From: an uncultured Verrucomicrobiota bacterium
Lineage (GTDB): Bacteria > Verrucomicrobiota > Verrucomicrobiia > Limisphaerales > UBA9464
NCBI GenBank assembly: GCA_903907995.1
Contig: CAIVQH010000005.1
Span: 1-45,322, forward strand
DNA: 45,322 bases
Reading direction: 5' to 3'
The translations under genes and the position numbers were made by a program. This document shows positions 9,341 through 45,322 of the stretch, in pieces. Positions within the stretch are counted from its first letter, which is position 1, and every line of letters begins with the position of its first letter. The notes beneath the pieces are model-generated. The model made no database searches. It was not told where the DNA came from and saw nothing but the letters and a program-made list of their open reading frames with translations.

Positions 9341-9867
9341 GGTTTGATTCCTTCCACCCGGCGTTTCAGTTCCTCCAACGGCAGCGGCACCTGCGTGGGC
9401 AGCCGGTAGCCGGTGGCTTCCGCCGGGCCACCGAACACGCCATTGCTCAACAGCTTGCGTCCATCCGTCGCTTCATGGACGGTAAATTTCCCCTGCGCCA
9501 GATCGAGCGTGACGGCGTCGCCGTGCGGATTACGGACGGTGAACACCACCACTTCCTCGCCGAGCCGGAACTCCGGTTCGCCCATCACCTTCGTCCAGCG
9601 CCGCCCGAGGACGCCGCTGCCCATCACCAGCGAGAAGTGGTTGGTGGCCGGGCCTTTCCAGAATTCGGGTGAATCCAGCTCAACCCGGGTAAACACGCGC
9701 CCCTCGGCATCCTGGCTGGCCTCCAAGCTGGCCACCCGGCCATGCACCACCGAATCGGCGCGGCGCGCCAGATCTTCCACCGGTGTCGGCACCGGCGCAT
9801 CTGCCTGCATCGCAGGAGTATGCAGGGAGAGCAACGCTCCCAGCAAAAGACAAAGACGGCCCGACAT
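9337..9867 (-). CDS. Small secreted protein coupled to the matrixin protease
   Basis: This 176-residue protein has a signal peptide (MSGRLCLLLGALLSLHTPAMQA). A compact, probably beta-rich domain follows, with the stretch SVVHGRVASLEA... FTRVELDSPEFWKG and VMGSGVLGRRWTKVMGEPEFRLGEEVVVF. I do not recognise a catalytic motif. Proteins with this pattern are often found beside matrixin-like proteases; here the gene ends in an ATGA overlap with the protease start. A role as propeptide-like inhibitor, chaperone or co-secreted partner is inference only. The start was chosen as the ATG that begins the signal peptide. The frame is open upstream through the adjacent repeat, but that extension is not credible. 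Confidence 0.72.
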   Translation of the reverse strand: MSGRLCLLLGALLSLHTPAMQADAPVPTPVEDLARRADSVVHGRVASLEASQDAEGRVFTRVELDSPEFWKGPATNHFSLVMGSGVLGRRWTKVMGEPEFRLGEEVVVFTVRNPHGDAVTLDLAQGKFTVHEATDGRKLLSNGVFGGPAEATGYRLPTQVPLPLEELKRRVEGIKP

Positions 9868-9990
9868 GACGTAGTCCGACCGGGAACGGGCGCTGGGGTT
9901 CAATGTTGCGTCCGAGGCGAGGGTACCAGCGCCGTCGGGCTCAAGGTCGGCAACATCCCCGAGGTTTCGGATCGCCTTGGCAAGCCTGAC

Positions 9991-10162
9991 GCGCCCTTTC
10001 CCCTCACCCCGGCCCTCTCCCTTGGGGAGAGGGAGAATGATCGTCCGTCTCTCGGCGAAAGCGGGCGCGGGATTGGCCGGACGCGCTGCCAAGCCACCGG
10101 GCGGGCTGCCCGGCTGTTCCCTCTCCCCGAGGGAGAGGGTTAGGGTGAGGGGGAAGGGAGCT
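9991..10162. repeat. Full copy of the CCCTCACCC/GGGAGAG palindromic repeat
   Basis: The left part (CCCCTCACCCCGGCCCTCTC, then a hairpin with GGGGAGAGGGAGAAT) and the right part (CCCTCTCCCCGAGGGAGAGG, then TTAGGGTGAGGGGGAAGG) are near-perfect inverses around a central unit containing GGCGAAAGCGGGCGCGGGAT and TTGGCCGGA. The copy at 39001-39171 has the same size and order; a left half lies at 344-426. It fills most of the 9868-10244 gap between two minus-strand genes. Confidence 0.85.
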
Positions 10163-10244
10163 TGCATCCGTCTGGCGCTGTGTCTCGCGACACGATTCCT
10201 AAACATCCGACCGTATTGGCAGCCACAGGGCGATTAAACGCGGC

Positions 10245-11996
10245 CTACTGGCCACCGGATACCTTCGCATAATAACCCGCGCTTGCCAGCAGTTCCTCGG
10301 CCGTTCCCGATTCTGCCACCCGGCCATCCTGCAGGGAGATGATTCGGTTCACCGTCCGCAGCGTGCCCAACCGGTGCGCCACCATCACCGTGGTACGCCC
10401 GCGCATCAGTTCGCGCAGGCTGACCAGCACCAAGGCCTCGCTCTCCGCGTCGAGCGCGCTGGTCGGCTCGTCGAGCAATAGGATCGGCGCGTCCTTGAGG
10501 AAGGCCCGCGCCAGGTTCAGCCGCTGTTTCTCGCCCACACTCAGCCGGGCCGCGCCGTCGCCCACGACCGTGTCGTAGCCCTGCGGCAGGTTCTCGATGT
10601 AGCTGTGCGCGTTGGCCGCCCGCGCCGCCGCCTCGATCTGCGCGCGGGTCGCGTTCGGTCTGCCGTAACCGATGTTTTCCGCGATGGAGGTCGGCAGCAG
10701 CAGCGGTTCCTGGAGCACGAGCGCGACGTTCTCCCGCAGCGAATGCAGGGAAAACTCCCGCAAGTCCGTGCCGCCCAGGCGCACCGTGCCGCCATCCGGA
10801 TCAAGGAAGCGCGGGATGAACTGCAGCAGCGTGGTCTTCCCGGCCCCGCTCGGCCCGATCAACGCGACCGCCTCGCCCGCGCCGACGCGGAAGGACACTT
10901 CGTGCAGCACCGGGCGTTCCTTGGTGTAGCCGAAGGCCACGCGGTCAAACTCCAGCCCCGTATCCACGCCCCGGACCACCGACCGGTTGCCGTCCTTCAT
11001 GGTCGAGCCTTCCTGAAGCAGCTCCAGCACGCGGTGTGTGCCGGCACGGGCGTTCGTCACGGTCGAGCCGACGTGGGAAAGCTGGTTCAGCGGGTCGTAG
11101 AGCTGGGTGAGATAGGCGAGGAACACCAGCAGCTGGCCGATGCTCAAGGAGCCGCTGATCACCTGCTTCGAGCCAAACCAGATGATCGCCGCCGTGCCCA
11201 GCGCAAACACTGCCGACACCGTGCTGAGGTACAGCACCTCCGCGCGGTGCTGACCCCAGCGCGCCGCGAAGGAGTTCTGCGACTGCCGCTCGAAGTGCTC
11301 CGCCTCCTTCGCCTCGCGGGTAAAACTCTGGATGAGCTGCAGGTTCGTCACGAGCTGCTGCACCGTGGTGGCAATGCCCGCGTCGGCCGACTGCGCCTCG
11401 CCGGCCCGCCGCCCCATGCGCCCGCCAAAGGCCTGCATCACCAGCAGCAGCAGCGGCACCGTCGCGAGGGCCACCAGGGTGAGCAGCCCGTTGAGCCGCC
11501 ACATCACGACCGTCATGGCGATCACACTCGCCAGCGCGCCGAGGAAGGTGAACACGCCCTGGGTGAACAGGGTCTGGAAGGCGTAGGTGTCCCACGTCGC
11601 CCGGTAGATCAGGTCGCCCGCCTGTGCACCCTGCAACCGCCGCAACGAAAGCCGCAACAGCCAGTCAAACACCGCCCGCCGCACCCGCGACAATCCGCGC
11701 AACCCGGTGACGATCACCACCGCATTCTGCGCCGCCCCGAGCAGGGCGCTCCCAAGATGCAGCGCGACCATCGCCCCGACCAGCAGCGCGAGCTGCGTCG
11801 GCAACGGCAGCCCGCCAATCTGCCGCCCGACGCTCTCAGGGAAGGGATTATGCCCCAGCACGGAATCCACGATCAGCGCCAGCGGCCACGGCTTGAGCAG
11901 GCCGGCCAGGGTGGTCAAGGCCAGCAACGCCAACCCCGCCAGCACGCGGGGCCAGTCGGCCCGGAAGTAGGAAAGCGCCCGCCAGAGTTGCTGCAT
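10245..11996 (-). CDS. ABC transporter, fused permease/ATPase (MsbA-like exporter)
   Basis: This 583-residue half-transporter has an N-terminal six-helix ABC_membrane domain (roughly 1-310) and a C-terminal nucleotide-binding domain. The ATPase motifs are Walker A GPSGAGKT (near 380), Q-loop LVLQEPLLLP, signature LSVGEKQR (near 485), Walker B ILLLDEPTSALD (near 503) and the switch histidine in VMVAHRLGT. It should work as a homodimer exporting lipid or another amphiphilic substrate across the inner membrane. The overall pattern is MsbA/multidrug-like, but substrate cannot be read from the sequence. It is a single minus-strand gene between repeat-bearing gaps. Confidence 0.9.
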   Translation of the reverse strand: MQQLWRALSYFRADWPRVLAGLALLALTTLAGLLKPWPLALIVDSVLGHNPFPESVGRQIGGLPLPTQLALLVGAMVALHLGSALLGAAQNAVVIVTGLRGLSRVRRAVFDWLLRLSLRRLQGAQAGDLIYRATWDTYAFQTLFTQGVFTFLGALASVIAMTVVMWRLNGLLTLVALATVPLLLLVMQAFGGRMGRRAGEAQSADAGIATTVQQLVTNLQLIQSFTREAKEAEHFERQSQNSFAARWGQHRAEVLYLSTVSAVFALGTAAIIWFGSKQVISGSLSIGQLLVFLAYLTQLYDPLNQLSHVGSTVTNARAGTHRVLELLQEGSTMKDGNRSVVRGVDTGLEFDRVAFGYTKERPVLHEVSFRVGAGEAVALIGPSGAGKTTLLQFIPRFLDPDGGTVRLGGTDLREFSLHSLRENVALVLQEPLLLPTSIAENIGYGRPNATRAQIEAAARAANAHSYIENLPQGYDTVVGDGAARLSVGEKQRLNLARAFLKDAPILLLDEPTSALDAESEALVLVSLRELMRGRTTVMVAHRLGTLRTVNRIISLQDGRVAESGTAEELLASAGYYAKVSGGQ

Positions 11997-12036
11997 GTCG
12001 CGGCGAGGTTAGCGGAAGGTGGGGACACCCGATATT

Positions 12037-12184
12037 GAATTTGGAAAGCAGGAAAACAGGAACGGAGAGGATGGGAAGGGAGAGGAAAAGCACTATCGCA
12101 GTACGAACCAAGGGGTGGTTGCCGTTTCCGGATTCTCATCTGCCGAGGATCGCTTCCTGTCGTCCGTTTCCTGCTTTCCAAATT
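12037..12184. repeat. Inverted-repeat element with GAATTTGGAAAGCAGGAA ends
   Basis: The left end GAATTTGGAAAGCAGGAA (12037 on) is the inverse of the right end TTTCCTGCTTTCCAAATT (to 12184). The interior is about 110 bp and lacks coding character. The same ends flank 17449-17631, and single ends lie at 36700-36726 and 38441-38466. This suggests a small non-autonomous repeat family. Confidence 0.75.
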
Positions 12185-12191
12185 GTCTCAA

Positions 12192-13286
12192 TCACTCCGT
12201 CCCAAAGGGCAGTTTCACGATCGCCACCGGGCTTTCGCCGGTGGCGGTCCGGAGGGTCAGTGCGGTGCCGGGGGTGTTGCATTCCTTGCGGATGTAGGCG
12301 AGGGCGAGGTTTTGGCCCAGGGCGGGTGATTTCAGGGCGCTGACGATGGTGCCGACGTCGCGGCCATCCTTGATGATTTTGTCGCCCTTGATCGGCAGCG
12401 CGGCGAGGTCGTCGGCCAGGCGCAGGCCGCGCAGGGCCTTGGTCACCTGTCCGTAGGTGCGGATGCGCGCGATCGTCTCCTGGCCGGTGTAGCAGCCCTT
12501 GGTGTAGCTGATCGCATCGCGGTCCAGCCCCGCCTCGGGCGGCAGGTGCGTCTCATCCATCTCGATGCCGAAGCGCGGGAGGCCCGCCTCGAAGCGCGCC
12601 ACTTCCAGCGCGGTGAAGCCCACCAGCCGGCCGCCGACCTCCCTGGCCGCCGCGACGAGCTTGTCGAGCACCGCCGCGAGCGCATCCGTCGGCACAAACA
12701 GATCGAACCCGGCGGACACGGTGCGGGCGTGGTTCATCAGGTACAGCTCGCCCAGCGTCGCATCACTGGCCGAGGCAAAGGCCAGGGGCTTGGCCGGCAG
12801 TTCGGGGAACAGCCCCAGCTTGCTGACGACTTCCGCCGCGCGCGGGCCTTGCACGGTGAACAGTCCGTAATAGGGGGCCACTTCCACGACCTGCACATCT
12901 TCGGCGACGATGTGGTGCTCCAGCCGTTGCTTGAGAGCCTCCGTGAGGCCGGGCTCGAAATCCAGTAGCAGCTCCTGCGGCAGCGCGTAGATGAAGGCAT
13001 CCGACACCAGCCGGCCCTTGGGGCTGCAAAAGGCGGCGTGACAACCGGTGCCCGGCGCGAGCGCCTTGACGTCGTTGGTGACCTGGCCGTTCAGCAGCCG
13101 CACGCGGTCCTCGCCCGTGAGGCAGATCCGCCCGCGAAAGCTCAGGTCGCCGACGCCGGCGGTGGCGCGGAGCGCGGCGTGTTCGGCCAGCCAGTCGCCA
13201 TAGTCGGCCGCGACCTCGTGGCCGTTCACCTCGGTGAACCGGGCGTCGAGCGCGGCGTGGACTTCATGGAGCACGAGCGGAGTCAT
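12192..13286 (-). CDS. ygfZ: YgfZ/GcvT-like folate-binding protein (Fe-S cluster maintenance)
   Basis: This 364-residue protein shares the aminomethyltransferase fold. It has the YgfZ signature KGCYTGQE followed by TIARIRTYGQV near the start of the C-terminal part. The N-terminal half (GVGDLSFRGRICLTGEDRVRLL... LNGQVTNDVKAL... GCHAAFCSPKGRLVSD) is typical of YgfZ/COG0354. The family binds folate and supports assembly or repair of Fe-S proteins such as MiaB. No GCV operon is near, which argues against GcvT itself. ATG 13286 begins MTPLVLHEVH; the frame is open upstream to 13451, but that part has no family similarity. Confidence 0.88.
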   Translation of the reverse strand: MTPLVLHEVHAALDARFTEVNGHEVAADYGDWLAEHAALRATAGVGDLSFRGRICLTGEDRVRLLNGQVTNDVKALAPGTGCHAAFCSPKGRLVSDAFIYALPQELLLDFEPGLTEALKQRLEHHIVAEDVQVVEVAPYYGLFTVQGPRAAEVVSKLGLFPELPAKPLAFASASDATLGELYLMNHARTVSAGFDLFVPTDALAAVLDKLVAAAREVGGRLVGFTALEVARFEAGLPRFGIEMDETHLPPEAGLDRDAISYTKGCYTGQETIARIRTYGQVTKALRGLRLADDLAALPIKGDKIIKDGRDVGTIVSALKSPALGQNLALAYIRKECNTPGTALTLRTATGESPVAIVKLPFGTE

Positions 13287-17347: not shown

Positions 17348-17448
17348 AGGAGCAATGGGTACGGTGCTGCGTTTCGTTCTGTCCCACTCTCCGCCGAACC
17401 GGCCGGCGATTCAATGGTGAAACTGGGCCGTGGACTCGGGCTGAGAAT

Positions 17449-17631
17449 GAATCTGGAAAACAGGAAAGCAGGAAACCCGAAAGACTCTGGTCTGCGTCCT
17501 GATCGTAATCTTACTCGTAATCTTAATCCTGCGTGGGCGGGCCAGAGCGGAGGCATAGCGATTAGGATTAAGATTTTTTGGGTTCCGACCACGCTTTATC
17601 CATTCCTGCTTTCCTGCTTTCCAAATTCACC
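17449..17631. repeat. Inverted-repeat element with GAATCTGGAAAACAGGAA ends and inner stem-loop
   Basis: The left end (17449 on, GAATCTGGAAAACAGGAAAG) is an inexact inverse of the right end TTCCTGCTTTCCAAATTC (to about 17628). Inside, AATCTTAATCCT (17519-17530) pairs perfectly with AGGATTAAGATT (17564-17575), followed by a run of T. The element is related to the one at 12037-12184. It lies directly upstream of the 17671 gene. Confidence 0.78.
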
Positions 17632-17670
17632 CCTTTTTTCCACAGCCGCCGCATTTGACTCCGCAACCAA

Positions 17671-18501
17671 ATGGAACTAGCAAAACGGTGGATGAAATGG
17701 CGAGGGATGCTGCCGGCCGTGATGCTGGCCTGGGGACTGACGCTGCCGGTGGCGGCGCAGGTCGCTCCACCGTCGCTGGCCGCCGAGGAGGTGATCGGCC
17801 GTTTTCTGGAGCGCAGCCGGACCACGACCAACCGGCTGGCCGCGCAGCATCACATCTGCATCCGGCGCACGGTCATGGAAGAACTGGCCGACGACGGCAC
17901 GGTCAAGGAGCGCAAGACCAAGGAGCAGTCGGTCGAGCTGCGCGGGGAGCACCAGCACATCCGCCTGCTCAAGCTCGACGACCGCGCCCCCACCGCCGAC
18001 GAGAAGAGGCGGGAGCTGGAACGCGAGGCGGAGCAGAAAAAGACCTTCACCGAGCGCAAGGACAAGCCCCGCAGCCGGGGCCCCGATTTCGTGGATGAGA
18101 AGCTGATCCGCCGCTTCGTTTACGAGTCGGATGGCACGGAACTGCTCAACGGCCGGATGACCTATGTGCTGAAGTTTTCGCCCGTGGCCGACCCGGTGGC
18201 CAAGGACAACGCCGACCGCGCCCTGAACCTGCTGACCGGCCGCATCTGGATCGACGTCGAGGAGTTTGAGCTGGTGAAGGTGGAGGCGCACCTGAAGGAA
18301 CCGCTCACCGTTCTCGGCGGCCTGGTGGCGAAGGTGGAGCGCCTCGACTTCGCCGTGGAACGCCGCCGGCTGTCGGACGGTCTGTGGTTCAACACCTCGC
18401 TCGTCACGCGCGCCGAGGGCCGCAAGCTGTTCTCTGCTTTCCACATGCGCTCCCGGATCGAGCAGGATGATTTCCGCCCCCTGCCGGGGACGGAGCGCTA
18501 A
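17671..18501 (+). CDS. Secreted LolA-like hypothetical protein
   Basis: The protein has 276 residues, with a signal peptide ending near LPVAAQ. A charged middle follows (EKRRELEREAEQKKTFTERK), then a C-terminal beta-rich part (GRIWIDVEEFELVKVEAHLK, then LSDGLWFNTSLVTRAEG). That pattern resembles outer-membrane lipoprotein-sorting/LolA-fold proteins of unknown role. It may act in the periplasm or at the outer membrane, but no partner genes are adjacent. The ATG at 17671 begins immediately after a repeat element. Confidence 0.7.
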   Translation: MELAKRWMKWRGMLPAVMLAWGLTLPVAAQVAPPSLAAEEVIGRFLERSRTTTNRLAAQHHICIRRTVMEELADDGTVKERKTKEQSVELRGEHQHIRLLKLDDRAPTADEKRRELEREAEQKKTFTERKDKPRSRGPDFVDEKLIRRFVYESDGTELLNGRMTYVLKFSPVADPVAKDNADRALNLLTGRIWIDVEEFELVKVEAHLKEPLTVLGGLVAKVERLDFAVERRRLSDGLWFNTSLVTRAEGRKLFSAFHMRSRIEQDDFRPLPGTER

Positions 18502-18780: not shown

Positions 18781-19347
18781 TCAGGCGGCTGATTCGGGAG
18801 GTTCCTTCGTTGGCGGGGCAAAGTAGTTCCTCGTGACCCGGTAAAGCATGCTGCCGCAAATGGTGATGACCACAAAAGCGATGAGGACGCTGGCGACTCC
18901 GGAAAGACCCCCGATACGATCGCCGAGAACGAAAAAGAGCGCAAAGATACCGGAAGCAAGGCCCGGAAAGAAAAGCAGCCACACACCGCCGACCACGACC
19001 AGCTTTGGACGCGTCTCCACCGCTCGACGATAGGCAAACCCGGCTGCATGCGCGGCGTCGGGCATGAGAAATGGGACGGTGGAACTCATCGGAGCGCCGC
19101 AGCGCTTACACCACCTGGATTCCAGAAGATTGGGAAACAGGCAAGCCGTGCAAAGCACCGTCGCAGTTTCTGCGGTCACATCGCACGGCGGCTCCCAGGC
19201 TTCGGACACCGGCTCCGTCTCCCGTTGAGTCTTCGGCGGAACCGGCTTCGCGGCGGCTACCGCACCTTCAAACTCGGCCGTGCCACATTCGCGACAATAA
19301 GTGGCGCTTTCATCATTTTGCCGCCCGCAGTAAGCACAGGATTTCAT
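18781..19347 (-). CDS. Double zinc-ribbon membrane protein, function unknown
   Basis: This 188-residue protein begins with a zinc ribbon (CAYCG... CRECG), followed by a second CxxC...CxxC unit (CTACLFPN... CKRCG). Its C-terminal half has two membrane segments (LVVVGGVWLLFFPGLASGIF and VASVLIAFVVITICGSMLY). The ribbons should face the cytoplasm. This arrangement is common among small stress or regulatory membrane proteins, but the role is unknown. It is downstream of and in the same direction as the ROK kinase, 83 nt away. Confidence 0.75.
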   Translation of the reverse strand: MKSCAYCGRQNDESATYCRECGTAEFEGAVAAAKPVPPKTQRETEPVSEAWEPPCDVTAETATVLCTACLFPNLLESRWCKRCGAPMSSTVPFLMPDAAHAAGFAYRRAVETRPKLVVVGGVWLLFFPGLASGIFALFFVLGDRIGGLSGVASVLIAFVVITICGSMLYRVTRNYFAPPTKEPPESAA

Positions 19348-19430
19348 GGCGCATAAAGCTACCGCCTCATTTCGCCTTCAATCGCCGCCGGCAACGCCAT
19401 ATCGCTTCTTCGTGTCATCACTGCTCCACC

Positions 19431-20411
19431 TCACTTCACCTTCTGCTTCGCCAGCACGGCGCCGCCGGTGATGCCGGCGAGGTCGCCGAGCTTGCTGGCG
19501 ATGATCTCGATGCCCTTGGTCGTGCCCGGCATGGCGTAGTCCAGCGCGGTCTCGACGATGATGGACATCATCTCGTCCTCCAGCGCGTCGATCACGCCGC
19601 CGCCCACGACGACCACCTCGGGATTGAAGATGTTGATGAGGTTGGCGATGGCGATGCCGGTGTATTCGGCGGCGTCCTCGATGACCTTCTCGACGAGCTT
19701 GTCGCCCTTGCGCAGCGCCTTGCGCAGGTCGCCGCTCTTCAGCTCGGCGAGGTCGGAGCCGAGCATCTCGGTGAGCACGGTTTTCCCGCCATCCTTCACC
19801 GCCTTCTGGATTTCGCGGAAGATGGCCGTGCGGCTTGCCAGCGCCTCGAAGCAGCCATTGTTGCCGCAGCCGCATTTGGGCCCGCCTACCTGGATGACCA
19901 TGTGGCCGAGCTCGCCGGCGGTCTTGTTGAAGCCGCCGTACAGCTTGCCGTCGAGGATCAGCCCGCCGCCGATGCCGGTGCCGAGGAAGATGCCGATGAG
20001 ATCGCGCGGCTTGCCCTTCAGCTCGACCTCGTGGACGCCGAGGGTGCAGATGTTGCAGTCGTTCTCGACGAAGACGGGCACGTCGAGCGCGCGCTCCAGC
20101 TCCTTCTTCAGGGGCGCATCCTTCCAGCGGAGGTTCGGCGCAAAAATCACCTCGCCCGAGTCGGGATCGATCGCGCCCGGTGCGCCGATGCCGATGGCGC
20201 GGATGTTCTTCAGCGAAAGGTCCGCCTCGTCCACCACATCGCGCACGCAGCGGGCGATGCGGGCGACGACGGCGTCAAAGCCGCGCTCGGACTTGGTGCT
20301 GAGCTTGGCGGTCTGCTGCAGCTTCAGCTGGGGTGTGAAGACGCCGGCGAGGATCTTGGTACCGCCCAGATCCACACCGATGAGGAGTTCCTGTTTTGTG
20401 GGTTCGGGCAT
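19431..20411 (-). CDS. ROK-family glucokinase
   Basis: This 326-residue sugar kinase has the ATP-binding start LIGVDLGGTKILAGVF. It also has the active-site segment NDCNICTLG, the phosphate-binding GIFLGTGIGGGLI, and the ROK zinc motif with GELGHM and CGCGNNGCFE. It would phosphorylate glucose or a related sugar in the cytoplasm. It is 18 nt downstream of the beta-helix polysaccharide-lyase-like gene on the same strand, so it may belong to the same carbohydrate-use unit with the DUF1080 genes. The exact sugar is not certain. Confidence 0.9.
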   Translation of the reverse strand: MPEPTKQELLIGVDLGGTKILAGVFTPQLKLQQTAKLSTKSERGFDAVVARIARCVRDVVDEADLSLKNIRAIGIGAPGAIDPDSGEVIFAPNLRWKDAPLKKELERALDVPVFVENDCNICTLGVHEVELKGKPRDLIGIFLGTGIGGGLILDGKLYGGFNKTAGELGHMVIQVGGPKCGCGNNGCFEALASRTAIFREIQKAVKDGGKTVLTEMLGSDLAELKSGDLRKALRKGDKLVEKVIEDAAEYTGIAIANLINIFNPEVVVVGGGVIDALEDEMMSIIVETALDYAMPGTTKGIEIIASKLGDLAGITGGAVLAKQKVK

Positions 20412-20429
20412 GCGCGCAGGTGGTGCCGG

Positions 20430-22343
20430 CTAATTGCCGGAAGTTTTGACGTTGGGCAACACGGTTTTCGGGGCGACCGCGCCGATCCCGTCGTAACCGG
20501 TGTACAGGGGCAGGGCGATGCCGCCGAGATGGTCGGGCAGGGGCTGGTCCTGGGACGGGCCGCGGCTGGTCATCTGGCGGGTCACGCCGCGCCGGGTTTC
20601 GGACACGATCGTCTGGTAGGCGTAGCCGCCCACCGGCACCTCGCTGAGGCTGAAGGTGGCCGAGGCGTCCACGATGCGGAACATCGGGTCCTGCTTCCAG
20701 GTGCCGTTGGAGAAGCACAGGCCGCCGAGCAGCTCGGTCTTGCCGCCGGACCGGGTGTCAATGAGGGTGCCGGGCAGCTCCACCTTCAGGCCCAGCACCC
20801 AGAGCTGGCCGCCGTCGTTGAGGATCTTGGTGCCGTTGCAATCAAGGCAGAGCTGCCGCGCCCAGAGCCGTCGGCCGGCGGGGATTGTCCACGGCAGCCG
20901 GCTCGAAACATCCTCCAAAAAGACGTCACCCTTCCCGGTCCAGCTGAGGCTCACGCCCTCGCAGCTGCTCAGCACCAGCTTGCGATTGGAACCCTGCTCG
21001 ATGAACAGGCGTTGGGCGGGCTGGAACTCGAGGCGCTCCACGGTCACCACCGGGGCCGTGCCGTCCACCAGCCGGAACGCGGGCTGGCCCACGGGCACCT
21101 CCGCCACGACCCGTGCCTCGCAGCCGATGATGCGCCGGACGTTCTTCCGGAGCTCCACCGGGTGCTGGATCTTCCAGACGCCATTGGGCAGATACACCGT
21201 CGCGGCCCCGGAATCGATGGCCGCCTGGATGGCCGCCGAATCGTCGTGCGCGCCATCGCCCTTGCCGCCGAAGGCCAGCGGACCCGCCCAGGCGCCGGGC
21301 GCATCCCACGGCACCTCCGGCGTCTCCTCCGCCGGCAGGAACAGGGCATATTGGGGGGCCGGGAAGATGTTGAAGATGGGATGCGACACAAACTCGCGCA
21401 CCTCGGGCCCGGAGGCGCCCTCGACGAAGCCGGTCCGGTTCTCGATCGCGTTGGTGTAGCCCGGGGTCGAAATCTGCCGGGCGAACAGGAAGCCCTTGTT
21501 CTGGATGGCCGGGGGCGGGCGTTTGGCCGGCAGCCCCTGCAAGGCGGCTTCCACCAAGGTCACAAAGCCGGTGGCATCCGTGTTTTGCAGGGCGACGACG
21601 CTGTTGGTGCTGCGCAGCCGGCGGATGCTCACGGCCTGGCCGCGGTTGCGGATGCCGGCCACCAGCTGGTCCACCAGCTCGATGTTCTCCATGGTCATGG
21701 AATACACCGAGTTGGCGGCGGCGATGCCGACGTCGAAGCCTTCCACCCGCACCCGCTGGATCAGGCACGGGCCGATGTGGTCCTCGTAGGCCAGGTCCAG
21801 GCCGATCAGCCCGCTCCTGCCACCGGCGATGATGGTGACGTCGCGAACGCAGCCCTGCCCGTTGGCCATGAACTGGAGGCCGATGGCACCGGCGTTGCCC
21901 TGGCCGCTGTTGAGCGTGAGGTTCCGCACCGCGTTGCGCTGGTGGAACGCCTGGCCGTCGCCGGTCCACACCATCGGGCGCGGCCGACCGGAGTTGCCGA
22001 AGCCGGGGGCGTAATCCAGCAGCCGGATCACCGTGCCGGCCCGGCTTTGCCCCTGGAGAACCGTGGCCCGCTCGGCCTTTTCCTCATCCTCGCCACCGGG
22101 CCAGCGGAGCGTGGCGGAGATCAGGTAGGTGCCGTTGGGCAGGTAGATGATTTTGTTGCCGTTCGGATGCTCCAGCAGGGCCTGCTGGATGGCTTCGGTG
22201 TCATCGGTCTTCCCGTCGCCCTTCGCGAAATAGGGCGACTTGGTCACATCCACCACGCCCGCATCCGGCGGGAACACGATGTCCTCCGCGCGGGCGGCAA
22301 GCGCAAAGGAGAGCAGGCAGAAAAAACGGATCAGGCGGCGCAT
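20430..22343 (-). CDS. Secreted beta-helix protein (pectate-lyase-3 / GH28-like)
   Basis: This 637-residue protein has a signal peptide (MRRLIRFFCLLSFALAARA). The N-terminal pectate-lyase superfamily segment YFAKGDGKTDDTEAIQQALL and IIYLPNGTYLIS is repeated later as GGKGDGAHDDSAAIQAAI and TVYLPNGVWKI. This indicates two beta-helix units as in Pectate_lyase_3 proteins. Catalytic residues cannot be assigned by eye. It is probably a periplasmic or extracellular polysaccharide-active enzyme. The frame is open upstream into the DUF1080 gene, but the ATG at 22343 begins the signal peptide. The gene sits between two DUF1080 genes and a glucokinase, all minus-strand. Confidence 0.85.
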   Translation of the reverse strand: MRRLIRFFCLLSFALAARAEDIVFPPDAGVVDVTKSPYFAKGDGKTDDTEAIQQALLEHPNGNKIIYLPNGTYLISATLRWPGGEDEEKAERATVLQGQSRAGTVIRLLDYAPGFGNSGRPRPMVWTGDGQAFHQRNAVRNLTLNSGQGNAGAIGLQFMANGQGCVRDVTIIAGGRSGLIGLDLAYEDHIGPCLIQRVRVEGFDVGIAAANSVYSMTMENIELVDQLVAGIRNRGQAVSIRRLRSTNSVVALQNTDATGFVTLVEAALQGLPAKRPPPAIQNKGFLFARQISTPGYTNAIENRTGFVEGASGPEVREFVSHPIFNIFPAPQYALFLPAEETPEVPWDAPGAWAGPLAFGGKGDGAHDDSAAIQAAIDSGAATVYLPNGVWKIQHPVELRKNVRRIIGCEARVVAEVPVGQPAFRLVDGTAPVVTVERLEFQPAQRLFIEQGSNRKLVLSSCEGVSLSWTGKGDVFLEDVSSRLPWTIPAGRRLWARQLCLDCNGTKILNDGGQLWVLGLKVELPGTLIDTRSGGKTELLGGLCFSNGTWKQDPMFRIVDASATFSLSEVPVGGYAYQTIVSETRRGVTRQMTSRGPSQDQPLPDHLGGIALPLYTGYDGIGAVAPKTVLPNVKTSGN

Positions 22344-39263: not shown

Positions 39264-40502
39264 TCAGGCCAGCTTGGCGCTCGCGCTGGGCGGGGGGAAT
39301 TCCCCTTCCCAGCGGGCGATGACGGCGGTGGCGAGGCAGTTGCCGACGAGGTTCACAGTCGTCCGTCCCATGTCCATGATCTCGTCCACGCCCATGATGA
39401 CCAGCACCCCCTCCAGCGGCAGGCCGAACGAGACCAGTGTGCCCGCGAGCACGACCTGGGAGGCCCGGGGGATGCCGGCCATGCCCTTGCTGGTGAGCAT
39501 GAGCGTGAGCATCATCACGACCTGCTGGGTCAGGCTCAGTTCTACCTTCGCCGCCTGCGCGATGAAGATGGAGGCGACCGCCAGATAAAGCGTGGACCCG
39601 TCGAGGTTGAAGGAGTACCCGATGGGCATCACGAAAGAGACGATGCGCTTGGGGACGCCGAAGTAGATCAGCCGCTTCATCGCGTCCGGCATCGCCGCGT
39701 CGGAGGAGGTCGTGGTGAACGCCAGCAGGATCGGCTCCTTGAGCAATTTCAGGAACCGCAGGACCGGCACCCGCGCCCAAAGCGCCGCCGGCAGCAGCAC
39801 CGTGAGACCGAACACCAGCAGCGCGCCGTAGAGCGTGATGATGAGCTTGAGCAGGCTTTTCAACGCATCGATGCCGCTATGGGCCACCGTATAGGCCATG
39901 GCCGCACCGATGCCGAACGGGGCGAACTTCATCACGAGGGCGGTGAACTTGAACATCGTCTCCATGAGCGACTCGCAGAATCTCAGCACCGGCTCGCGGG
40001 CGGTGCGCTCCACCTGCGCGAGCGCAATGCCAAACAGGATCGCGAAGAACACCACCTGCAGCACGTCGTTCGCGGCGGCGGCGGCAAAAAAGCTTTGCGG
40101 CACGATGTGCACGAAAATGCCCGAGAGGGTCACCTTTTCGGCCGTGACATGGCCGACCGCCGAGCCGGGGGGCGGCAGCACCAGCCCGTCGCCGGGACGG
40201 AAAACATTGACCGCGACCAGGCCGATCACGAGGCCGAGCGTGGTGACGACCTCAAAGTAGAAGATCGACTTGATCGCCAGACGGCCCACCGCCTTCATGT
40301 CGTCGGCGTGCCCCGCGATGCCCACGACCAGCGTGCTGAAGACCAAGGGCACAAGGATGCACTTGATCATGCTGAGGAACACGGTCGAGACGATCTTGAG
40401 CTCCATCGCCGGCGTCGGGAACCAGTGGCCGAAGGCGATGCCGGCGACCATGGAAATCATGATCCAATGGGTGAGCGAAATCCGCCGGAGGAAGGGCCAC
40501 AT
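39264..40502 (-). CDS. Dicarboxylate/glutamate:cation symporter (DAACS family)
   Basis: This 412-residue inner-membrane protein has about eight transmembrane helices and two re-entrant loops. Family motifs are the serine-rich hairpin TTSSDAAMPDAM, YSFNLDGSTLY in helix 7, and the final NLVGNCLATAVIARWEG of helix 8, which together form the substrate and sodium/proton site. It would import glutamate/aspartate or C4-dicarboxylates. The ATG at 40502 is chosen because it directly precedes the first amphipathic and membrane helix (LTHWIMISMVAGIAFGHWF). It stands alone on the minus strand. Confidence 0.93.
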   Translation of the reverse strand: MWPFLRRISLTHWIMISMVAGIAFGHWFPTPAMELKIVSTVFLSMIKCILVPLVFSTLVVGIAGHADDMKAVGRLAIKSIFYFEVVTTLGLVIGLVAVNVFRPGDGLVLPPPGSAVGHVTAEKVTLSGIFVHIVPQSFFAAAAANDVLQVVFFAILFGIALAQVERTAREPVLRFCESLMETMFKFTALVMKFAPFGIGAAMAYTVAHSGIDALKSLLKLIITLYGALLVFGLTVLLPAALWARVPVLRFLKLLKEPILLAFTTTSSDAAMPDAMKRLIYFGVPKRIVSFVMPIGYSFNLDGSTLYLAVASIFIAQAAKVELSLTQQVVMMLTLMLTSKGMAGIPRASQVVLAGTLVSFGLPLEGVLVIMGVDEIMDMGRTTVNLVGNCLATAVIARWEGEFPPPSASAKLA

Positions 40503-40676
40503 GCGTGGCGATGATGCACGGTGGCAGCGGCAGGGCACAACCCCGCGTCACCGATTCACGAGGAAAATTGCGTCCAAAATGGGACTCGGTGAATAGCGCC
40601 TGCAATACCCTGCGCTGAAGCGCTGGGCTATTTCCGATCGGGAAGCGATCGTGCGGTTCAGTTCTTCGGTCAGCCG

Positions 40677-40796
40677 ATGTTCGAAAGCGCCGGGTCGGAC
40701 GCCTTTGTCTCGCTTGCCAAACGTCAGCGCGCCGTCGCGCACAAGGCCGGCCTGAAGCTCCTGCCCAAGCTGCCGCCCGCGCGGGGCCGAAAGTGA
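40677..40796 (+). other. Possible gene remnant in the 40503-40845 gap
   Basis: A 39-codon frame MFESAGSDAFVSLAKRQRAV... ending PPARGRK has an amino-acid pattern more protein-like than most shadow frames. It could be the C-terminal remnant of a lost gene, since the frame is open upstream to 40596. No family is recognised. The rest of the gap shows only a partial AGCGCTGGGCTATTT motif. Confidence 0.2.
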
Positions 40797-40845
40797 AGGT
40801 GTGCGCGAGGCACACCGCACCGCAAAACCGGACGTGAGCCGCCGC

Positions 40846-41376
40846 TTACTGCTCCGCCTTCTCGTTGGCGGCTTCCAGGGCGATCTCGGTCAGCTTTTCA
40901 TCCGCCGCCTTCTCCTCCTCCAAGGTCTGTTCCAGCAGCCCGGCCGCCTCCTCGTGGCCCAGCTGTTTCGCCCAGGCGATGAGGGTGCCGTAAGAGGCGA
41001 TTTCGTAGTGCTCCACCTTCTGGCCGGCGGCGATGATGGCGGCGTCGATGGCCGGGGAGTTCTTCCACTCACCCAGCAGCTCGTCGCCTTCGGCGATGAT
41101 TCCCTGCATGGCCTTGCAGGGCTTTTTCTCGGCCTTTTCCCCGAGGGCGGCAAACACCTGTTCGAGCCGCCGGATGTGACCGCGGGTTTCTTCCAGATGC
41201 CCTTCCAGGGCCTGGGTGAGATCCTCCGAATCGGCGGCCTGGATCATCTTGGGAAGTGCCTTGGTCAGCTGGGTTTCGGAATGGAGGGTATCGGCCAGTT
41301 CATCCAGAAACAGGTCGTGCAGCTCGTTGTCGTGGGTGTCTTCCTGGGGGGCCGTCGAGGGTGAAGATTTTTTCAT
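40846..41376 (-). CDS. DUF892 (YciE/YciF) ferritin-like protein
   Basis: This 176-residue all-helical protein matches DUF892: LHDLFLDELADTLHSETQLTKALPKM, EGHLEETRGHIRRLEQVF and KVEHYEIASYGTLIAWAKQLG, with the ExxH-type metal ligands of ferritin-like four-helix bundles. The family is usually stress-induced and cytoplasmic; its exact role is not settled. It has a long acidic C-terminal helix (EEEKAADEKLTEIALEAANE). ATG 41376. Confidence 0.92.
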   Translation of the reverse strand: MKKSSPSTAPQEDTHDNELHDLFLDELADTLHSETQLTKALPKMIQAADSEDLTQALEGHLEETRGHIRRLEQVFAALGEKAEKKPCKAMQGIIAEGDELLGEWKNSPAIDAAIIAAGQKVEHYEIASYGTLIAWAKQLGHEEAAGLLEQTLEEEKAADEKLTEIALEAANEKAEQ

Positions 41377-41983: not shown

Positions 41984-42087
41984 AGGTGCTTTTGGATGCC
42001 CACCATCGCCGTCTCCCGTTCCGGCCCTGAAGCCGGCAGCTTTCAGAAAGCTGATTGAAGCGGCTGGAGATTGAACCCCTGACTGCA

Positions 42088-43287
42088 ATGCGTCGCCGTT
42101 CGAACCTGATGTCCGTTTCGCTCCCACGTCTCCTCTGTCCTCGCTGCCGCCGACCCCAGTCGGCCTGCTGGTGTGCCACGTTGACGCCGATTAAGACGGC
42201 AACCCGCGTGGTTTTCCTGCAGCACCCGCGTGAGGCCAAGGTCGCCATCGGCACCGCGCGCATCGCCCATCTCGGACTGGCCCGGAGCGAACTGCACGAG
42301 GGGGTCGAATTCGCCCACCATCCCCGCGTCGCGGAACTCGTGGCCCGTCCCGGCACGGCCCTGCTCTTTCCGGGCCCGGGCGCCGTTTCTCCGGATGCGC
42401 TCGAGCGCCCGCCCGAAACGCTGCTGGTCATCGATGGCACCTGGCCGCAGGCGCGGAAGATGATGGCGCTCAATCCCGCCCTGCGGGCCCTGCCCCGCAT
42501 TGGCTTCATGCCCCGCAAGCCCGGCAACTACCGGATCCGCCGGGAGCCGGCGGCGCACTGCGTCGCCACGGTGGAGGCGGTGGTCGAGGTGCTGGCGGCG
42601 TTCGAGCGTGATCCGGCGCGCTTCGGCCCGCTGCTGCTGGCGTTTGACGCGATGGTGGACCGGCAGCTCGCGGCGAAGGCCGCCCGCGTGGAGCCCCCGC
42701 GTCGCCGCCTCAAGGCCTGCGATCCCTGGTGGACCTCGGCGGCGATGCCCGATCTCGAAACCCTGTGGCCGCATTTGGTGGCCGTCGCGGGCGAGGCCAA
42801 CGCCCACGGCCGCACCAGTGGCGTGGCCGGACCACCGGAGCTCGTGCAGCTCGCCGCCACCCGGCTCGCCACGGGTGAGGTCTTCCACGCGTTTCTGGCT
42901 CCGCGCCGGCCCCTGGCCGACAGCGTGGCCTGCCACTTGGACGTGCCCCTCGAAGCGCTCTATGGTGGCCGTCCCGCCGGTGAGGTGCTGGCCGACTGGC
43001 GCCGGTTCATCGCGCCGGACGACATCCTGATCGGCTGGGGCGTCCACGGTTGGAGGCTGCTGGCTCAGGAGGGCTGGCAGCCGGAACTCCCGCCCCTCGA
43101 TCTCCGCCTGATCGCAGCCCACCGCCTGAAACGTCGGCCCGGCGCGCCGGACTCCGCCGTGAAGGCCATCGGCGGCGCGTCGGACGGCGTCCCGCCCGCG
43201 CCCGGTCGCGCCGGCCGGGTGCTTCACGCTATCGGGGCGTTCACCCGCGCGTTGGTGGAGGAGAAGCGTGCGGCAGGACGGGGTTAG
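42088..43287 (+). CDS. DTW-domain tRNA-uridine aminocarboxypropyltransferase with extra C-terminal domain
   Basis: The protein has 399 residues. The N-terminal half is a DTW (TapT) domain: a zinc-type CPRCRRPQSACWC, FLQHPREAKVAIGTARIAH, the signature DGTWPQARKM, and YRIRREP. These enzymes add an aminocarboxypropyl group from SAM to U47 or U20 of tRNA. Residues from about 220 form a further domain (LVQLAATRLATGEVFHAFLAPRRPLA, then DILIGWGVHGWRLL) whose layout suggests a DnaQ-like exonuclease fold without its acidic catalytic residues. ATG 42088 and ATG 42109 are both possible; upstream only a TTG at 42055 is available. Confidence 0.85.
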   Translation: MRRRSNLMSVSLPRLLCPRCRRPQSACWCATLTPIKTATRVVFLQHPREAKVAIGTARIAHLGLARSELHEGVEFAHHPRVAELVARPGTALLFPGPGAVSPDALERPPETLLVIDGTWPQARKMMALNPALRALPRIGFMPRKPGNYRIRREPAAHCVATVEAVVEVLAAFERDPARFGPLLLAFDAMVDRQLAAKAARVEPPRRRLKACDPWWTSAAMPDLETLWPHLVAVAGEANAHGRTSGVAGPPELVQLAATRLATGEVFHAFLAPRRPLADSVACHLDVPLEALYGGRPAGEVLADWRRFIAPDDILIGWGVHGWRLLAQEGWQPELPPLDLRLIAAHRLKRRPGAPDSAVKAIGGASDGVPPAPGRAGRVLHAIGAFTRALVEEKRAAGRG

Positions 43288-43363
43288 GGGAGCGACTGCA
43301 AGGTCAGGCCATAACCCCGTTACCGACGGTCTAAGATCCCGGTAAACAGGATGCCGAATGGAG

Positions 43364-43388
43364 TGGTGCCCACGACAGGACTTGAACC
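43364..43388 (-). other. Displaced 3' end of the tRNA at the window's right edge (att-like repeat)
   Basis: These 25 bases are identical to 45290-45314, the 3' end (CCA, discriminator, acceptor strand, most of the T arm) of the partial tRNA. The upstream part of a tRNA is absent here: no anticodon arm follows and the T stem is already broken. The same orientation and 1926-bp spacing fit an attL/attR pair from integration into the tRNA 3' end. Confidence 0.8.
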
Positions 43389-43561
43389 GTGTGGACTGTG
43401 GCCGCTAATGCCCCGTTGCCAGCCCTTGCGCCGCGCCATCGGGGGGTAGCCACCACATTGCACTGGCCTTTCGCCATAAACCTCTTAAAAAGCCATCGAA
43501 ATTCCCGAGATAGGCGACATGTCTCGTCGGTAGAACACCTAGTGAGGCTAACTTTTTTCGT

Positions 43562-43924
43562 GTGAAGCAATTACTCACAATTCCGTTGCTCGTGTTATTG
43601 GCTGGGTGTGTCAGTCCTTGCAACAGCTATCCTTGGACACTTTATCTGCTGGCTCCAATTATGGTATTTGACCCACACACATATCGTGGGCACGACGGTT
43701 CTTCCATGCAGAATGCCATCATCCTAAACGGGACGCAGGGAGTTGAAGCGTCAAGAAATGCGGAGTTCGCTTACATACAGCACAAGTTCAAGGTTGACAC
43801 CACGGCTCCAATTCAGCAGCGACGAGAGTATTTAGTGGTTGGGCAGCACAAATATGATGTTATTACATTTACGACCGAGAACGGCAAAGCCAAGTCTTTG
43901 TGGTTTGATGTCACTGCCAGCTGA
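43562..43924 (+). CDS. Small lipoprotein of unknown function
   Basis: This 120-residue protein has a lipoprotein signal ending in lipobox LLAGC (MKQLLTIPLLVLLAGC). A short domain follows with ALILNGTQ-like strands (NAIILNGTQGVEASRNAEFA and KYDVITFTTENGKAKSLWF). The start is GTG at 43562. Its GC is clearly below the window average. It lies within the tRNA-flanked interval and its stop is 9 nt before the attC-like palindrome, the usual gene-to-attC spacing in a cassette. Function unknown. Confidence 0.65.
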   Translation: MKQLLTIPLLVLLAGCVSPCNSYPWTLYLLAPIMVFDPHTYRGHDGSSMQNAIILNGTQGVEASRNAEFAYIQHKFKVDTTAPIQQRREYLVVGQHKYDVITFTTENGKAKSLWFDVTAS

Positions 43925-43933
43925 CATGGGTGA

Positions 43934-44032
43934 GCCTAACCAGTCGCAGGAGCCAACCGCCGACTGGCCTGTCACTTCCGCCATCTCGGTTGATGCCGCG
44001 AGTCGGAGGTGGCCTGGCATTCTACGTTAGGA
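43934..44032. other. attC-like imperfect palindrome (candidate integron recombination site)
   Basis: It begins GCCTAAC (43934-43940, fits the R'' consensus RYYYAAC) and ends GTTAGGA (44026-44032, one mismatch to GTTRRRY). An inner pair GCCAACCGCCGACT and AGTCGGAGGTGGC is nearly complementary, so the 99 bases can fold into a long bulged hairpin as attC sites do. It lies between two small genes, 9 nt after one stop and 5 nt before the next start codon. No integrase or second full site is visible. Confidence 0.5.
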
Positions 44033-44037
44033 ATAAA

Positions 44038-44286
44038 ATGAAACGCCCGATATTCGTGGTCCCTGCGGTGATCTTCGGATTGGCCGCCGTATTTTTCATC
44101 TTCTACGAGGCGCGCCTGTTGTATGTCACTCGCGGTCTAAAAGAGGTCCGTGCCGGCGGAAACGGAGCCTACGTTGGCGCAGTTGCGTTTCCACTGCTCG
44201 CTCTACTTTTCATCTGGTGCGCTCGGCGTTGCTGGCGGGCGTCACGATTCAACCCAAGCGTGCAAGCACTTGAACCAAAGGCCTAA
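44038..44286 (+). CDS. Small two-helix membrane protein
   Basis: This 82-residue protein has two transmembrane segments (IFVVPAVIFGLAAVFFIFYE and YVGAVAFPLLALLFIWCARR) and a short polar tail. ATG 44038 has AGGA six bases upstream and starts 5 nt after the attC-like palindrome. GC is lower than in neighbours. No family is recognised; it lies in the tRNA-flanked interval with the lipoprotein gene. Confidence 0.65.
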   Translation: MKRPIFVVPAVIFGLAAVFFIFYEARLLYVTRGLKEVRAGGNGAYVGAVAFPLLALLFIWCARRCWRASRFNPSVQALEPKA

Positions 44287-44367
44287 TCAGGCTCCCGACC
44301 CATCCGCCGTTGCCGCTGGCTGCCACATTGCCACAGGTTGCGCTTTCGGGGTTCCATGCCCCCAGCC

Positions 44368-45057
44368 ATGAAACTGCACGCCAGTTTGCTGTTGCTCGTG
44401 CCTTGGACCGCCGCTGCCGGTGCCTTCACCGACCTGGATTTCGAGGCGGTTCTGCACGTCGCCCTGACTCGGGCTGTGGTTGCGGCTGGCGGTGAACTGG
44501 CTCCGGCGAGCCTGGCATTTCCGGGTTGGACAGTGTTGTTCGGCGGAGTCCCGCAATCCAGGGTCTTGTATAACGATATCACTCTTGGTGCTGGCAGCGT
44601 ATTGCTCTTCAGCACGTTTCCCCCGCGTCCCGGCTTTTCCCAGCCCTTGGCAGGAAACTACATGGCCGGCCTGCAAGGCGAAATGGGTTCTAGCGGGAAA
44701 CCCGCTGCATTGGAGCAGACGGGCACGATTCCCGCCGGGAGCCAGACGATGACGTTCATCGGTGGCGTCAGTCAGTCATTGTCCGTCAGCCTGAACGGGT
44801 CGCTGGCCCCGATCGTGGATCTGGGGCACACCTCTACCGGCCAGTTTCCCGGTTATGACACCTATGGTGTGAACGTTTCCGCCTGGGCTGGGCAGACGGT
44901 GCAGTTGGAATTCGCGTCCGGCGACCCGCCGGCCAGTGGCGGTGTATTGGACAACATCACCTTCTCGCCCATCGCGCTGATTCCCGAGCCGTCCACCTAT
45001 GCCCTGTTTGGTTTCGGCGCGGCGGCGCTGCTTTGGTTCCGCCGCGGCCAGACCTGA
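44368..45057 (+). CDS. PEP-CTERM sorting-domain protein
   Basis: This 229-residue secreted protein has a signal peptide (MKLHASLLLLVPWTAAAGA), a beta-rich middle (DITLGAGSVLLFSTFPPRP and AGQTVQLEFASGDPPASGG), and a C-terminal PEP-CTERM signal: IPEPSTYALFGFGAAALLWF followed by RRGQT. Such tails are cut by an exosortase in bacteria that make exopolysaccharide. No exosortase is in the window. ATG 44368 is chosen for the signal peptide. It is inside the tRNA-flanked interval but has the GC level of the host. Confidence 0.88.
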   Translation: MKLHASLLLLVPWTAAAGAFTDLDFEAVLHVALTRAVVAAGGELAPASLAFPGWTVLFGGVPQSRVLYNDITLGAGSVLLFSTFPPRPGFSQPLAGNYMAGLQGEMGSSGKPAALEQTGTIPAGSQTMTFIGGVSQSLSVSLNGSLAPIVDLGHTSTGQFPGYDTYGVNVSAWAGQTVQLEFASGDPPASGGVLDNITFSPIALIPEPSTYALFGFGAAALLWFRRGQT

Positions 45058-45289
45058 AGCTTTGGCTCAGGCGTCGAGGGTAAGGGTGAGGGTTGCGATG
45101 CGTTTTTGCGTTAGGGTAACGACACGAAAGCCTCCGATAGCGGGACTATTTCTCAGCGACCAAGGCTGACAGGAAAACACCCTAAAACATGGGTGACACA
45201 ACCAGTGTTTGTCTTACTGGATGCTTACTCCGGCTTCCCAGCTCACTCGAAAAACCGGAAACTGCTGATAGAGAGCAGCTTACTTGGAA

Positions 45290-45322
45290 TGGTGCCCACG
45301 ACAGGACTTGAACCTGTACGAT
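45290..45322 (-). tRNA. tRNA, 3' part only, probably tRNA-Leu (cut by the window end)
   Basis: Read on the minus strand, the last 33 bases give the end of a variable arm (ATCGT), a perfect T stem ACAGG/CCTGT around TTCAAGT, the 3' acceptor strand CGTGGGC, discriminator A and encoded CCA. The anticodon lies outside the window. The acceptor sequence, the A discriminator and the extended variable region before the T stem favour leucine. Its last 25 bases are repeated at 43364-43388. Confidence 0.8.

Follow-up and report, generated by a model that had tools for sequence, protein, structure and literature searches.

Here we describe, at the right-hand end of a stretch of DNA of 45,322 nucleotides (the window), what is very likely a relic genomic island that sits at a tRNA-Leu(CAG) gene, is devoid of an integrase and holds a CALIN-like array of integron cassettes. 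The term CALIN comes from IntegronFinder and designates, in the cited part of its description, a cluster of attC sites lacking an integron integrase (PMC9024848). The window is contig C5 of its own genome, G000, and is compared here with G003, a MAG of the same genus that is treated as a sister species, and with G012, which belongs to another genus of the same family. The locus of G003 is split over two contigs, C44 on the tRNA side and C48 (22,328 bp, CAIXUG010000048.1, uncultured Verrucomicrobia MAG) on the far side. The two ends of the interval and their flanks comprise the following features.

42055 to 43287, plus strand: gene of a DTW-domain protein (PF03942) flanking the far copy, outside the interval; same neighbour in G003.
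43359 to 43388, minus strand: displaced tRNA-Leu 3′ end (far att copy), made of 25 nt of T-loop, acceptor and CCA (43364-43388) and 5 flanking nt.
43389 to 43542, no strand: left spacer, from the displaced tRNA end to the first cassette.
44338 to 45057, plus strand: gene of a PEP-CTERM protein (PF07589, 28.8 bits), found in both species.
45211 to 45228, minus strand: putative arm-type motif region, with GTAAGAC intact at 45211-45217 (+73 from the tRNA) and a degenerate GTAAGCA at 45222-45228 (+62).
45290 to 45322, minus strand: 3′ portion of tRNA-Leu(CAG), truncated where the contig ends.

The original prediction had called attention to a repeat of 25 bases ending in CCA, in the same orientation as a partial tRNA and on its 3′ side, and this observation is confirmed. 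The 25 nt of 43364-43388 recur exactly at 45290-45314, and with one mismatch allowed the match extends to 30 nt (43359-43388 and 45285-45314). The two copies run in the same orientation, 1,926 bp apart from start to start; the right one, on the minus strand, corresponds to the T-arm, acceptor stem and CCA of the tRNA, and the left one sits on the 3′ side of that tRNA. Contig C5 ends at 45322, inside the tRNA, and the complete gene expected beyond that edge is found in the G003 ortholog, a full tRNA-Leu with anticodon CAG that is followed on C44 by the PEP-CTERM gene. The tRNA 3′ end is thus duplicated on the 3′ side of a tRNA that is seen intact in G003: on C48 the displaced end occupies the equivalent place (L064:1241-1270), adjoins the DTW gene and is identical to the copy at the G000 edge in 30/30 nt.

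Throughout the whole G000 genome, a 24-mer of the repeat was found in 5 places with up to 3 mismatches, the reversed control pattern giving 0; four of these places are tRNA genes or the cut tRNA of the window, and the sole exception is 43365. The same 24-mer, with at most 1 mismatch, is present in 54 of 96 genomes (own included) and is multi-copy in four of the 96, namely G000 (3), G003 (2), G012 (2) and G039 (2, on different contigs).

The repeat is almost entirely tRNA sequence (25/30 nt), as would be expected if the copy at 43359 were the degraded end of a second tRNA-Leu that once stood in tandem array. This origin, which the original prediction had itself put forward as the reading that would undo it, is very improbable: identity stops at the same T-loop position in both species, nothing resembling a tRNA is visible by eye ahead of that point, none of 16 tRNA-Leu(CAG) loci (0/16) has a second tRNA-Leu(CAG), and paired motifs match those of an island in G012 that still has its recombinase (see below).

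The organization of the contigs has also been considered. The ends of C48 and C44 are inverted copies of each other in 23/24 nt (L064:1-130, L065:7020-7159) and are apparently the two ends of one insertion sequence that interrupts an attC core GTTAGGC at its TA; this element is presumably IS630-like. Because they look like the two ends of a single IS, C48 and C44 would be neighbours. In G000, the tRNA-Leu of contig C1 and the gene upstream of it correspond to those of G003, with 93% identity over about 3 kb, and an arrangement like that of G003 would connect C5 to the left part of C1. The stretch that follows the complete tRNA-Leu(CAG) of C1 on the downstream side, at G000:C1:87021-91553 (L010:7022-11554), bears, by eye, glyoxalase-, sugar-kinase-, malic-enzyme- and ligA-like genes. 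It is closest to another family, with 89% and 85% identity to two separate pieces of G238, which would mean either a chimeric junction in C1 at the tRNA or the entry of foreign DNA at that point. Four loci of the other family, in which the matching genes have no tRNA nearby, argue against a simple chimera. As the window ends inside a tRNA, and C1 changes character at that same tRNA, the repeat or the edge could be imagined as the product of a chimeric contig. Such an assembly artefact has very little probability, given that both ends recur in another MAG, G003, together with the complete tRNA and with contigs stopping in matching IS-like ends.

What an intact island at this tRNA looks like is exemplified by G012, where one of about 9 kb extends from tRNA-Leu(CAG) (L184:4093-4177) to a displaced 3′ end (13127-13157), which stands 96 bp before the start of a tyrosine recombinase of 380 aa (11895-13037; PF00589, 65.1 bits). 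This recombinase has relatives in 41 of 145 genomes (own included), with E no higher than 1e-30. Among the 15 best loci (L205-L219), the query's own included, 13 present a tRNA 3′-end signature 96-118 bp from the recombinase start, a signature which gives 111 hits in 2.59 million strand-bases when real tRNAs and overlapping loci are included; near the recombinase start of L207 (G000) and L216 no such signature was found. The displaced ends that lie about 100 bp from the recombinase in these 13 loci derive from several different tRNAs, and a short repeated motif often precedes the recombinase start codon. Furthermore, G003 has an island of its own with a recombinase of this family, at tRNA-Met (G003:C39).

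The interval of the window contains no recombinase gene, and tblastn with the G012 recombinase revealed no remnant of one there (the best match in the window, E 0.27, falls outside the interval). This agrees with the idea of a decayed island lacking its recombinase.

When 19 native tRNA flanks were set against the 70-nt inner flank of G003, those of G012 and G014 gave matches better than any of 200 shuffles, and it is this likeness that led to the motif GTAAGAC. A pair of these heptamers stands beside the tRNA at +62/+75 in G003 and at +63/+76 in G012, and these are the only places with a pair at such spacing in 1.29 Mb, overlapping loci included. The 70-nt outer flank gave no clear match to the 19 native tRNA flanks (best cases, 5 and 7 of 200 shuffles). 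In the window the exact spacing of the pair is lost, and the intact GTAAGAC at +73 is the sole occurrence of any of four related 7-mers in 45,322 bases; over 20 tRNA-Leu flanks, any of the four is present in 5/20 and two in 2/20. These putative arm sites, recognized on the basis of sequence, are therefore shared on the tRNA side only, with both intact in G003. On the side of the far copy (43389-43545) no GTAAGAC-type motif was found, although G012 has an int-side motif, and the suggestion that the island could be mobilised in trans finds no support.

A joined, empty site was found neither in the DTW loci of 17 relatives nor in the tRNA-Leu(CAG) loci of 16. In 17/17 other loci the DTW gene is away from any tRNA called by ARAGORN, several of these loci being cut short by contig ends, and gene order around DTW and tRNA-Leu varies among relatives; a scan of the genome contigs for the left junction returned a single matching record, that of G003. 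The attribution of the footprint to a tyrosine recombinase thus stands by analogy and by motif (the G012 island, the 13/15 loci, the paired motifs), and the empty site that was to accompany it was not found. It had been stated that the same interval at the same place in a related genome, with no empty site, would speak against integration. G003 partly corresponds to this description, carrying the interval at the same place with no empty site found, but its content differs by cassettes.

Indeed, the cargo is the second component of the locus. It had been described as encoding a lipoprotein, a two-helix protein and a PEP-CTERM protein; the ORFs are present, but their organization as an integron cassette array had been overlooked. 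An attC site is bounded by two complementary core sites, and cassettes are delimited by a cut at G/TT. Applied to the interval, these rules define the following features.

43543 to 44026, plus strand: cassette B, with boundaries predicted from the G/TT rule and an ORF at 43562-43924 (120 aa).
43934 to 44032, plus strand: complete attC of cassette B, from GCCTAAC (43934-43940) to GTTAGGA (44026-44032), which we take to be its complementary core sites; 96.4 bits.
44027 to 44317, plus strand: cassette D, with predicted boundaries and an ORF at 44038-44286 (82 aa).
44281 to 44317, plus strand: truncated attC (5′ half) closing the array, common to G000 and G003.

Each attC site thus accompanies a cassette. 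The product of cassette B is lipoprotein-like by eye, and its ORF has no Pfam and no PHROG match at E 0.1. The product of cassette D shows two hydrophobic stretches by eye, and its TAA stop lies inside the half attC; no match to this cassette was among those listed for 58 genomes, with five candidates scored per genome. The half attC is 81% identical over 37 nt to an attC of G003 and aligns with the half site of that genome, whose locus has two complete attC sites and, as in G000, the half site beside the PEP-CTERM gene. The content enclosed by the two ends of the interval varies between G000 and G003 in units of whole cassettes: B is in both, A is seen only in G003, and the last place is taken by D in G000 and by C in G003. 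Among the 227 loci compared, A and C are confined to G003 loci and D to G000 loci.

The surrounding sequences give a measure of the distance between both species. Identity reaches 90.0% in the DTW gene (1066/1185 columns) and 89.7% in the PEP-CTERM region 44317-45284 (862/961). The part of the left spacer at 43389-43515 (110/125 columns, 88.0%) is better conserved than the spacer just outside the tRNA copy, between DTW and the copy (46/70, 65.7%). Cassette B is 94.6% identical (365/386 columns) and its attC 78.4% (76/97); when 43934-44032 is compared with L064:112-211, the first ~30 nt of the attC are near-identical and the rest has diverged, perhaps through exchange between attC sites.

That cassette B is more alike than the flanks on either side, as if it had arrived later, is in keeping with an origin of the cassettes unrelated to that of the tRNA footprint: an old insertion, followed by off-target placement of cassettes by IntI in the relic. 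Off-target insertion is one of the origins proposed for CALINs in the cited part of the literature (PMC8618304). The half attC beside the PEP-CTERM gene argues the other way, since it is common to both species, which implies that an array was present before they split. Separate origins are a serious possibility, and one that overlaps with the relic island holding a cassette array, in which the order of events is left open; the probabilities given to both are not exclusive.

A covariance model of attC was built from 11 sites, among which are that of the window and one adjacent to an IntI. It matches 40 of 48 genomes (own included) at E up to 1e-4, although matches far below the scores of its own members may include false ones. 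It recognized sites beside integrases in three genomes that had contributed nothing to the model, namely G037:C66 (IntI 17389-18228, attC sites 18826 to 21668), G020:C230 (IntI 39868-40860, attC sites from 41456) and G050:C237 (IntI 9743-10720, attC site 11183), whose IntI genes pass the curated cut-off; the half attC at 44281-44317 was missed by the model. Folding as single-strand DNA gives the attC of the window a z of -1.22 (21/200 shuffles fold as well; other strand, -1.07), not clearly stronger than shuffles, and the G003 sites -0.28 and -1.98. In the attC alignment, the RNAalifold covariation term is +0.26, slightly unfavourable, and a double change is present in at least one sequence at 5/16 pairs. 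The assignment as attC relies on the match in sequence, on sites that each follow a gene, and on the exchange of cassettes.

Further matches at E up to 1e-4 are found in G000 (C2:21687, C36:39633) and in G003 (C61:19400, two in C43, and C47). In C43 of G003 (L193:961-4137), a tRNA-Ser(TGA) is followed 2.6 kb downstream by two attC sites, with no displaced tRNA end within 16 kb, and a partial attC of G008 is separated from a displaced tRNA end by about 1.1 kb. One regular expression for the tRNA 3′-end repeat revealed no second tRNA-bounded array at the other attC-bearing loci. The yield of the model hints at a cassette pool wider than intI counts alone suggest.

In this regard, the integron integrase family (TIGR02249) exceeds its curated cut-off in 29 of 96 genomes and, within the genus, in one of eight (G005, whose match reaches no further than position 251 of 315). 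No IntI gene lies beside or near the array. G003 has no IntI match at E 1e-30, and G000 has none over the cut-off, in drafts of about 95% completeness from which an IntI could be absent. The weak matches of G000 are seven, in five ORFs, and controls show such weak matches too. The two best were rejected as XerC/D-like by eye, from a C-terminal motif that we take to be a mark of those proteins, and one of the other three ORFs (C11) belongs to the island recombinase family.

Altogether, an ancestor common to G000 and G003 would have received an island, inserted into the 3′ end of tRNA-Leu(CAG) by a tyrosine recombinase, and the second copy of the tRNA end at 43359-43388 would date from that event. 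Later loss of the recombinase, together with its side of the att site, would have fixed the island. The gain, loss or exchange of cassettes (B and D in G000; A, B and C in G003) would be the work of an IntI provided from elsewhere, or would predate the loss of IntI. A bolder and rather doubtful version would see the dead island as a lasting landing pad which, after the loss of its recombinase, kept exchanging cassettes via IntI from elsewhere; if true, two unrelated systems of site-specific recombination would have made successive use of one locus. In the relic island that we favour, the tRNA repeat finds a likely explanation. Moreover, turnover of integron cassettes is observed between sister species of an uncultured verrucomicrobial genus, neither with a detectable IntI. 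CALINs and tRNA islands are each well known, and their combination with visible cassette exchange is modestly interesting.

Compared with CALINs, the locus shares attC cassettes in tandem and in the same orientation, the lack of a detected IntI, and small genes without family matches. It departs from them in that the array of the window is bounded by the repeat of a tRNA 3′ end and has a complete attC and a half site, against two complete sites and a half one in G003. The IntegronFinder 2 default given in the cited part of its description is at least two complete attC sites for a CALIN; by this rule the window alone would not be a CALIN and G003 would be (PMC9024848). In the cited part of a study on Xanthomonas, CALINs are located at conserved loci away from intI (PMC12444791). 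Verrucomicrobiota are among the phyla listed with integrons in the cited part of another source (PMC8618304), and the chromosomal integrons of the same order at G037:C66, G020:C230 and G050:C237 have attC sites recognized by the same model as those described here, but with an IntI beside them, which the locus of the window lacks. Finally, the tRNA-targeted tyrosine-recombinase islands at G012:C77 and G003:C39 resemble the locus in the duplication of a tRNA 3′ end downstream of the tRNA and in the paired 7-mer motifs, whereas the window has neither a recombinase nor an int-side motif, and only 1.9 kb is left.
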